From assembly GCF_016613535.2 (NCBI RefSeq), contig NZ_CP071518.1, positions 558,001 to 622,000 on the forward strand: a stretch of DNA of 64,000 nt. The letters are read 5' to 3'. Positions 9,583 through 32,860 of the stretch are shown piece by piece (within the stretch, counting starts at the first letter, position 1; each line of letters starts with the position of its first letter). Source of the DNA: Lysobacter solisilvae (GTDB lineage: Bacteria > Pseudomonadota > Gammaproteobacteria > Xanthomonadales > Xanthomonadaceae). The position numbers and the translations under genes are program-made. The notes beneath the pieces were generated by a model. That model did no database searches and was not told the origin of the DNA. It saw only the letters and a list, made by a program, of their open reading frames with translations.

Positions 9583-11185
<1,603 letters not shown>

Positions 11186-11241
11186 GCGCGGGACTCGTCG
11201 TAAGCGGGGGTCGGGCGAAAATGGCCCAGTGGAGCCGCAAA

Positions 11242-11271
11242 AGTATAGCAGGCCGGGATTTTCCCGGGCAA
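11242..11271 (-). promoter_or_regulatory. Predicted sigma-70 promoter of the atp operon
   Basis: On the minus strand TTGCCC (11271-11266) and TATACT (11247-11242), 18 bp apart, with TGC just before the -10 (extended -10). It lies 57 bp from the atpI start. The spacer contains a perfect 6-bp inverted repeat (CCGGGA-TTT-TCCCGG, 11253-11267). Confidence 0.65.
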
Positions 11272-11364
11272 CCGCGAAAAGGCGGGGGTCACGGGCGGGC
11301 GGGGAGGCCAGCGAGCCTTGTCCCGAGGCGCTTCCGCCAGGACGATCTGCCCTGCCCCGTTCAC

Positions 11365-11392
11365 GGAACCTTTCCGGAATCACCGGGTCAGA
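11365..11392 (+). promoter_or_regulatory. Candidate ECF (RpoE-type) promoter
   Basis: GGAACC (11365-11370), 16 bp, then GTCAGA (11387-11392). This fits the GGAACT-N15-17-GTCNNA pattern known for RpoE-type sigma factors in xanthomonads, with one mismatch in the -35. A start site would fall near 11398, just ahead of two hairpins and a U-tract. Confidence 0.4.
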
Positions 11393-11397
11393 CCCGG

Positions 11398-11470
11398 CAA
11401 GGCCTGCTTCTTCCTCGTCGATCGTGCAGGCCTGCGAAGCCCTGGTTCCGAGGCCGGGGCTTCGTCTTTT
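11398..11470 (+). ncRNA. Candidate small regulatory RNA (about 72 nt)
   Basis: There is no open reading frame of interest on this strand, yet the stretch has the form of a bacterial small RNA. First comes hairpin 11401-11407/11426-11432 (7 bp, GGCCTGC/GCAGGCC) with an 18-nt pyrimidine-rich loop. The second is the terminator stem 11435-11442/11457-11464 followed by TCTTTT. An RpoE-like promoter sits directly upstream. Size and layout resemble RpoE-dependent small RNAs such as MicA and RybB, but no sequence homology to them is seen. It is antisense to nothing and lies between the atpI promoter and the end of the racemase gene. Confidence 0.45.
11435..11470 (+). terminator. Orphan plus-strand intrinsic terminator
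   Basis: Stem CGAAGCCC/GGGCTTCG (8 bp) with a 14-nt loop, then TCTTTT. The U-tract is on the plus strand, whereas both flanking genes are on the minus strand, so it must end a separate plus-strand transcript. Confidence 0.7.
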
Positions 11471-11506: not shown

Positions 11507-12208
11507 CTACGCCGCCGCAGGCTCCATGGCCCAGTCCGCCGCCGTCTCGGCGTGGATGCGCGCGGTATCGAACAGCGGGACCGGCGCATCGTCCGGGCCC
11601 ACCAGCAGTCCGATCTCAGTGCAGCCCAGGATGATGCCCTGCGCCCCCTGCACCACGAGGGCGGCGATGGCCCCGCGGAAATACTCGCGCGACCCGGCCT
11701 CGATCACGCCGCGGCAGAGCTCGTCGTAGATCACGGCATGGATGCGCTCACGGGCTGCGGCGTCGGGCAGCAGCACCTCCAGGCCCGCCGCTTCCAGCCG
11801 CTCGCGGTAGAACGCCTGCTCCATGGTGAATCGCGTCCCCAACAGGCCGACCCGGGCCAGTCCGGCCGCGGTGATGCGCCCGGCGGTCGCGTCGGCGATG
11901 TGCAGCAGGGGTACCGCGGTTGCGGCCTCCACCTGCGATGCGACCGCGTGCATGGTGTTGGTGCAGATGACGATCGCGTCCGCGCCGGCGTGCTCTAGTC
12001 GACTGGCGGCCGCGGCCAGCAGCTCCCCTGCCTCGTGCCATTGGCCGCGGTGCTGCATCTGTTCGATCTCCGCGAAGTCCACGCTGTAGAGCAGGATCCT
12101 GGCCGAGTGCAGCCCGCCCAGCCGGTCGCGCACGCGTTCGTTGAGAATCCGGTAATAGGGAACCGTCGATTCCCAGCTCATCCCGCCCAGCAGACCCAAC
12201 GTGCGCAT
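11507..12208 (-). CDS. Aspartate/glutamate racemase family protein
   Basis: 233 residues, close to YgeA-type broad-specificity amino-acid racemases. The fold has two alpha/beta lobes, each contributing a catalytic cysteine: C82 in ICTNTMH and C196 in LGCTEIG. Such enzymes interconvert L and D amino acids without a cofactor; substrates range from Asp and Glu to homoserine, so specificity cannot be given. The N-terminus MRTLGLLGGMSWEST is typical of the subgroup. Stands alone on the minus strand between lpdA and the atp operon. Confidence 0.9.
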   Translation of the reverse strand: MRTLGLLGGMSWESTVPYYRILNERVRDRLGGLHSARILLYSVDFAEIEQMQHRGQWHEAGELLAAAASRLEHAGADAIVICTNTMHAVASQVEAATAVPLLHIADATAGRITAAGLARVGLLGTRFTMEQAFYRERLEAAGLEVLLPDAAARERIHAVIYDELCRGVIEAGSREYFRGAIAALVVQGAQGIILGCTEIGLLVGPDDAPVPLFDTARIHAETAADWAMEPAAA

Positions 12209-32094: not shown

Positions 32095-32126
32095 AAAAAA
32101 AAAGCCCGGCCGAAGCCGGGCTTTTT
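32095..32126 (-). terminator. Terminator of the cold-shock gene
   Basis: GCCCGGC (32104-32110), loop CGAA, GCCGGGC (32115-32121). On the minus strand it is followed by nine U. Thus it ends the csp message about 20 bp after its stop. The T5 on the plus strand makes it partly bidirectional. Confidence 0.88.
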
Positions 32127-32144
32127 CGTCTTGCTGGTGCGGAC

Positions 32145-32354
32145 TTACGCCGGCTGGACGGCGTCTGCCTGCAGGCCCTTCTGGCCCTTGGTCACGGTGA
32201 AGGTGACCTTCTGGCCTTCCTGCAGGCTCTTGAAGCCCTGGGACTGGATGGAACGGAAATGGACGAAAACGTCCTCGCCATTCTCACGGCTGATGAAGCC
32301 GAAGCCCTTGGCATCGTTGAACCACTTGACGGTACCGGTTTCACGGTCGGACAT
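32145..32354 (-). CDS. cspA: CspA-family cold-shock protein
   Basis: 69 residues, a single OB-fold cold-shock domain with both RNA-binding motifs: KGFGFIS (RNP1) and DVFVHF (RNP2). Single-stranded nucleic-acid chaperone. ATG 32354 is preceded by AAGGAG; a 12-residue in-frame extension upstream is non-conserved. The leader contains a GAAA-capped hairpin (32384-32399) and probably extends further, as in other cold-shock messages. Confidence 0.95.
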
Positions 32355-32383
32355 GACTTGCTCCTTGGAACAGTTTTGAAAGC

Positions 32384-32399
32384 GCCGCATTTCTGCGGC
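32384..32399 (-). promoter_or_regulatory. GNRA-capped hairpin in the csp leader
   Basis: Minus-strand GCCGCA-GAAA-TGCGGC: 6-bp stem closed by a GAAA tetraloop, 30 bases upstream of the csp start. Likely part of a structured 5' leader. Confidence 0.5.
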
Positions 32400-32860
32400 A
32401 AGGAAGCTGGTTGCAAGGAGGAAGCGGGGTACAACGATGTAGCGGATCTTCGATCTACAGCATCAGGCCACGATTCAAGTGACCCTTGGAACTCAGCGGG
32501 CGCACGGTAACCGCTCGTGGCGGCGAGCGTCAATCATCCCGGCATGGGTCGTTCAGTTTCGGCTCCCGGGAACCCTGTGGCCGCCGTCCAGCGGGGTCAC
32601 CCGGGCTCCGCGCGGCCTTGCGGCGGCCGTCCGGCCCCGGGATCGCGCATGGCGCCGCTGAGCGCGTCCGGGCCACACCCGGTCCTGGCAGGCACGGCCT
32701 GATGGCGGGAGGATTGCTCCGGCGTGCGCGCTGGACGGGCTCGCGCGCATGAACTGGGGGCGAGCATGAACCGCTCCGCCCGGCCATGACGGTCGCTGTA
32801 CGCACTTTTTACCCGACCGGGCGGAGCCTTGCGGGCGTTCCACCCACAGGAGTACCCCGC
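32400..32860. other. Long spacer between csp and EF-hand gene
   Basis: About 460 bp without a supportable ORF. It must hold the csp promoter (minus strand) and that of the EF-hand gene (plus strand). A weak minus-strand TTGAAT with TAGATC 15 bp downstream near 32455-32480 is the only csp promoter candidate I see. Confidence 0.5.

Follow-up and report, generated by a model that had tools for sequence, protein, structure and literature searches.

Described small RNAs closest to the locus

The described small RNA (sRNA) closest to the one considered here is sX12 of Xanthomonas (Rfam RF02231), whose original description is reportedly that of Schmidtke et al. 2012. In X. campestris pv. vesicatoria, sX12 is reported to be an expressed sRNA, needed for full virulence and controlled by HrpG/HrpX (PMC3771888), whereas in X. 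campestris pv. raphani it is described as not hrpG-dependent (PMC4652430). A review adds that HrpX could be regulated by sX12 (PMC10346379). In the accessible parts of these sources, HrpG/HrpX is the only named link of sX12 so far. The titles and abstract openings that were searched, most subscription papers being outside reach, connect sX12 neither with sigma-E nor with a lipoprotein.

Three other types of sRNA are useful for comparison with the RNA predicted in the window, i.e., the whole stretch of 64,000 nucleotides of Lysobacter solisilvae that was analysed. The sRNA sX13 from Xanthomonas is, like the window sRNA, a structured RNA whose pyrimidine-rich hairpin loops face purine-rich sites near start codons, but it is described with three C-rich loops carrying 4C motifs (PMC3771888), whereas the window sRNA has one loop with a fixed CCUCGUC. 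MicA and RybB from E. coli, 70-80 nt long, belong to the sigma-E sRNAs and reduce the synthesis of outer-membrane proteins, as the window sRNA would do; their reported targets are porins and their action depends on Hfq (PMC6737893), whereas the predicted targets of the window sRNA are lipoproteins. MicL (SlrA), also from E. coli, represses lpp as part of the sigma-E response (PMC6737893). If the reading proposed below holds, MicL and the window sRNA have in common a sigma-E promoter, a short RNA and a small lipoprotein message that is blocked. However, MicL is released by cleavage of a transcript of 308 nt and is located inside cutC (PMC6737893), whereas the window sRNA is predicted to be a primary RNA of 72 nt, located beside atpI and transcribed from its own promoter. 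Furthermore, MicL targets Braun's lipoprotein Lpp, while the predicted target of the window sRNA matches no Lpp family. The window sRNA is thus not a MicL; it would be at most an analogue, and no kinship is claimed.

Organization of the sRNA gene

The sRNA gene lies on the plus strand between two minus-strand genes. On one side is an atpI-like gene (10802-11185, GTG start at 11185 picked by eye), the first gene of the divergent atp operon, named from its position and its similarity to relatives and without NCBIfam match. It is followed by atpB, which encodes the ATP synthase subunit A (9937-10830, minus strand) and served as synteny anchor. The probable -10 of the atp operon, TATACT, was located by eye at 11242-11247 (minus strand). 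The far side of the sRNA gene is occupied by an amino acid racemase gene (11507-12208, TIGR00035).

The original prediction of a promoter GGAACC-N16-GTCAGA is borne out: a -35 element of ECF/sigma-E type, GGAACC (11365-11370), which is kept in relatives, is separated by 16 bases from GTCAGA (11387-11392), whose GTC is the conserved core of the -10 element. The palindrome CCGGGTC-A-GACCCGG that surrounds the -10 looks coincidental, as had been suspected, because it is not conserved even in the congeners G001 and G002.

The predicted RNA (11399-11470) has 72 nt, the size first proposed. Its first hairpin (11400-11433) does have the announced 18-nt pyrimidine-rich loop (11408-11425), inside which the MFE fold draws two weak pairs, but its stem has 8 bp (11400-11407 with 11426-11433) instead of 7. 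The loop carries the seed UUCCUCGUCG (11411-11420) with the core CCUCGUC (11413-11419). In the same way, the rho-independent terminator (11434-11470) and its T run, which extends to 11470, were correctly foreseen, whereas its stem was underestimated at 8 bp and has 14 bp, G-U pairs included (11434-11447 with 11452-11465). The segment 11399-11470 folds better than 200 of 200 dinucleotide shuffles (z -5.8); for the longer segment 11395-11475, 2 of 200 shuffles fold equally well (z -3.3).

Kinship with sX12

The RNA had initially been said to resemble no known sequence. This is not the case: an Rfam search with 351 bases matched RF02231 over its full length (1-78 of 78; 36.6 bits, E 4.8e-5, or E 1.3e-4 at whole-genome scale). 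The other Rfam matches near the RNA were a sar RNA match weaker than that of sX12 (E 0.0014) and five weaker ones, and a search of a plasmid collection gave no match. The window RNA misses the Rfam gathering score for RF02231 (106 bits), which is reached in 2 of 198 family genomes. The eight strongest sX12 matches of the family (66-111 bits) all belong to genus g18, which is taken to be Xanthomonas, going by the Rfam family name. All eight are divergent from atpI-atpB, as in the window, and preceded by a GGGAACTTTGCC..GGTC promoter, L017 (opposite strand) included.

The window RNA and sX12 are alike in full-length sequence and structure, with the loop core UCCUCGUCGA, the first stem and the terminator in common, as well as in their location on the atpI side and in the kind of promoter. 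They differ by a longer terminator loop and a shorter first loop in the window RNA. The latter lies outside RF02231 as Rfam delimits this family, yet, judging from the full-length match, from the covariance model described below and from the common genomic place, it is an orthologue of sX12. Elsewhere in the window, the Rfam family of the cspA thermoregulator leader (RF01766) is matched above its cut-off (32096-32487, minus strand; 88.3 bits).

Distribution and conservation in the family

A search of the family with the Rfam model of sX12 gave matches in 118 of 198 genomes at E up to 1, which were excluded from all counts because many of them are weak or located elsewhere in the genome. The gene was looked for instead upstream of atpB, an anchor that avoids selection by the RNA itself. 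The anchor gene atpB was located in 119 of 119 family genomes with a completeness of 90% or more, and upstream regions were taken from 100 of them. Two regions clipped at contig ends, those of G126 (1137 bases) and G084 (772), were scored as lacking the RNA. The covariance model was built on the RNA alone, leaving out the promoter, from 38 training sequences that come partly from the same genomes; since all the training loops are CTCGTC, it is biased towards such loops. Full-length matches on the divergent strand were found in 72 of the 100 regions. Exclusion of G065, whose match lies inside a gene (E 3.2), leaves 71 regions from 32 genera. One of these, G031, reaches only E 0.089, yet promoter, loop and stem are present.

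The promoter is found in 56 of the 71 RNA regions with a strict pattern and in 70 with a loose one, as compared with 222 of 46258 control windows (0.5%; loose pattern, 0.9%), among which true promoters still remain. The distance from GGAACY to GTC is 16 bases in 59 of 64 readable relatives and 17 in the other 5. A check for compensatory changes in the stems, suggested along with the original prediction, was positive: among 54 structure-aligned relatives, there are 54 double-change cells versus 10.3 in shuffles, and 97.8% of the cells are paired versus 90.3% after shuffling and 31-56% in slid controls, the alignment being fitted to the structure and thus favouring pairing. Because promoter, stem, loop and terminator recur beside atpI in relatives and the stems undergo compensatory changes, the structure is more than a product of chance. 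It is near certain that 11365-11470 is a real sRNA gene.

Of the 71 RNAs, 67 retain the loop core CCUCGUC unchanged, and all four exceptions belong to genus g14 (L379, L382, L383, L385-L388), the only genus seen in which the core is altered in several ways; the neighbouring genes are unchanged. This genus is a candidate place for altered sRNA targets.

A scan of named genomes returned mostly unrelated taxa among the matches listed (80 of at least 117 stretches). In five of the seven family-named records among these listed matches, the gene has its promoter and lies next to atpB: Stenotrophomonas rhizophila, Stenotrophomonas sp. ISL-67, Pseudoxanthomonas sp. Root630, a P. suwonensis MAG and a Lysobacteraceae MAG. 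The matches in an S. maltophilia MAG and in Lysobacter ruishenii look like chance. The pattern CCTCGTCG..GCAGGYC..GAAGCCCC was found in 22 of 395 genomes and missed the window's own genome.

A lipoprotein mRNA as predicted target

In the window's genome, the seed UUCCUCGUCG is the exact complement of CGACGAGGAA, located ahead of a lipoprotein gene. Complements of the loop beside an ATG were searched in six genomes from six genera; in the matches listed, the part from G063 is incomplete, and 20 chosen and 30 returned places were read. A gene encoding an alanine-rich lipoprotein has GACGAGGA at the Shine-Dalgarno position in five of these genomes, and also in the sixth, G063, where it was found via a separate region. 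All 35 genomes that carry the sRNA and were searched have a homologue of this lipoprotein (E up to 1e-8). The lipoprotein start is preceded by GACGAGG at 29 of the 30 loci that were read, and five more genomes show the same, not counting a second paralogue in G028 (without the site) and another in G007 (start not given).

With genus g14 included, in which 6 of 11 genomes have the lipoprotein gene, loop and leader can be compared in 39 genomes. In 33 of them (33/33 outside g14 and 0/6 in g14), the leader exactly complements the genome's own loop over 8-13 nt, while 0.67% of base-shuffled leaders reach 8 nt. Duplexes are significant (p<0.05) in 33 of the 39, i.e., in 32/33 outside g14 and in 1/6 in g14, where one loop was wrongly extracted. 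In the window's genome, the lipoprotein leader is complementary to the loop over 10 nt; among 1763 candidate starts from 464 kb of this genome (crude gene calls), 10 nt is reached by none, 9 nt by two and 8 nt by 13.

The lipoprotein has a signal peptide with a lipobox, is alanine-rich and mostly 103-129 residues long (one frame has 66), and ends with Lys-Lys in 19 of 30 cases. Its build resembles that of Lpp or OprI. Pfam and NCBIfam gave no family match above chance, and a protein search yielded 23 matches, only one of which is named (hypothetical protein, Lysobacter). Taken together, these comparisons strongly suggest that a lipoprotein mRNA is the target of the sX12-group sRNA. The initial guess of a regulator of outer-membrane messages thus came near the mark, as the best predicted targets are mRNAs of outer-membrane lipoproteins. 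That the loop is an exact complement of the Shine-Dalgarno region of this lipoprotein is a new observation, and the link to sigma-E and a lipoprotein is new to us.

Other candidate targets

The loop complement GACGAGGA also stands at the Shine-Dalgarno of pal (TIGR02802) in 12 of 27 family genomes; the eight Xanthomonas-like genomes that were read lack it at this gene. Four of six genomes, each from a different genus (L322-L325: G000, G070, G131 and G017), have GACGAGGAGCCATnnCATG at the start of a histone H1-like gene that is rich in Lys and Ala and whose family match is weak; this gene is a possible further target of the sRNA. In the window's genome (L273, minus strand), GACGAGGAC immediately precedes the ATG of a gene whose product looks FtsZ-like by eye. 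A stretch of 15 nt at G000:C1:1256745 that is complementary to the loop was rejected as a candidate: it reads as the end of a coding frame (3' side) with an ORF of 14 residues behind it. The pattern CATCGACGAGG near an ATG gave mostly apparent coding matches in 27 genomes.

Proposed mechanism and alternative explanations

Envelope stress would free the ECF sigma factor RpoE (sigma-E), which, to judge by the promoter at 11365-11392, would transcribe the 72-nt RNA. The first hairpin of this RNA would expose CCUCGUC in its loop, and this loop would pair with GACGAGG over the Shine-Dalgarno of the alanine-rich lipoprotein mRNA and, in part of the genera, also with pal and the histone H1-like gene. 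Access of the ribosome would thereby be barred and less lipoprotein would be made. The simplest view is that a seed carried by the loop masks the Shine-Dalgarno, and a sigma-E-induced orthologue of sX12 that blocks translation of an Lpp-like lipoprotein in this way is, in our judgement, the probable explanation.

A less probable explanation, to be taken seriously nonetheless, is that the sX12-group sRNA is real but that GACGAGG is only a conserved ribosome-binding site, the true targets being elsewhere. GACGAGG does contain the Shine-Dalgarno. Furthermore, duplex energies are unselective in the GC-rich genome of the window, where 144 of the 1763 sampled starts equal the lipoprotein and 484 equal pal. 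In g14, where both the sRNA loop and the lipoprotein site drift, no clean covariation was found. G212 does have an 8-bp match with one extra base in both loop and site, and in G113 a pair is exchanged within a match of 6 nt, but when loops were swapped, own pairs were not favoured overall (of 33 canonical loops, the own loop beats 28 in G212, 28 in G113, 23 in G179 and 16 in G160, whereas in G015 and G086 it beats none).

Genomes without the sRNA also bear on this explanation. The set comprises 29 genomes and refers to the atp locus only (28 without model match and G065). Of these 29, 12 have the lipoprotein gene, versus 35 of 35 genomes with the sRNA (Fisher 4e-8, kinship uncorrected, query and threshold having differed). 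The site is kept in 6 of these 12, and four of the six belong to genus g61; all four g61 genomes read (L399, L401, L402 and L404) keep AGACGAGGA before the lipoprotein gene, the atp region of G126 being clipped. However, a mere ribosome-binding site fits poorly with conservation of the site in 33 of 33 sRNA-bearing genomes outside g14, versus 6 of 12 without the sRNA (Fisher 1e-4, kinship uncorrected). It also fits poorly with the GAC that extends beyond GAGG, kept in the same 33 of 33 and found at only 1 of 84 sampled starts with GAGG.

It is doubtful that the sRNA acts mainly on its divergent neighbour through the leader of the atp mRNA. In many genera, the sequence GCGGCTyyGCrGGGC behind the -10 looks, by eye, conserved at the start of this mRNA (about 11200-11250, minus strand). 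The leader of the Xanthomonas-like clade starts with GCGGCTCGACGAGGC, which is complementary to the sRNA loop and makes the atp mRNA a possible additional target in this clade. However, although the loop is fixed, only 14 genomes out of 67 show a duplex with p<0.05 (mean z -0.52), and the other 53, including that of the window (p 0.106), have no significant pairing. The atp leader was rejected as main target, its pairing being weak.

The promoter itself leaves slightly less room still for another ECF sigma factor, or an activator, that would respond to a different signal. A -35 element with GAAC is used by other ECF factors too. Sigma-E promoters of E. coli have the layout GGAACTT, 16 bases, GTC, and the GGAACY-16-GTC arrangement of 59 of the 64 readable relatives corresponds to this consensus. 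The sigma-E consensus given for X. campestris is GAACTT for the -35 and TCTCA for the -10, and the putative sigma-E site of smeIJK in S. maltophilia has GAACCT as -35 (PMC4229105). The window -35, GAACCT, is identical to the latter and a good fit, whereas the -10, TCAGA, fits only partially (3/5 versus TCTCA). The reported control of sX12 by HrpG/HrpX in one pathovar (PMC3771888), unconfirmed in another (PMC4652430), would speak for a different regulator. Loose GGAACY..GTC sites number 25 in 464 kb of the window's genome and lie, by eye, mostly in coding frames. The sRNA promoter is of sigma-E type, and we infer its dependence on RpoE from this promoter.

Finally, the idea that there is no sRNA, and only a stray terminator or a chance structure between genes, is hardly tenable: the second hairpin alone would be a plain terminator, but its T run is on the strand opposite both neighbours, the promoter is found again together with the first stem and the loop in 71 regions, and expression of sX12 as an sRNA has been reported (PMC3771888).

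Significance for the family

An RNA filed under Xanthomonas thus turns out to be widespread in the family, below the database cut-off. With the sigma-E-induced lipoprotein repressor as preferred reading, sX12 gains sigma-E as its likely regulator, together with a fixed seed and a single target that is strongly predicted. On balance, we lean towards the view that, in most of the family, an sX12-group sigma-E sRNA lowers a family-specific Lpp-like lipoprotein (and Pal in some genera), as an independently evolved counterpart of the sigma-E-MicL-Lpp circuit of E. coli, and that the effect of sX12 on virulence would reflect envelope remodelling. If this is true, repression of a small lipoprotein by sigma-E arose more than once in Gram-negative bacteria.
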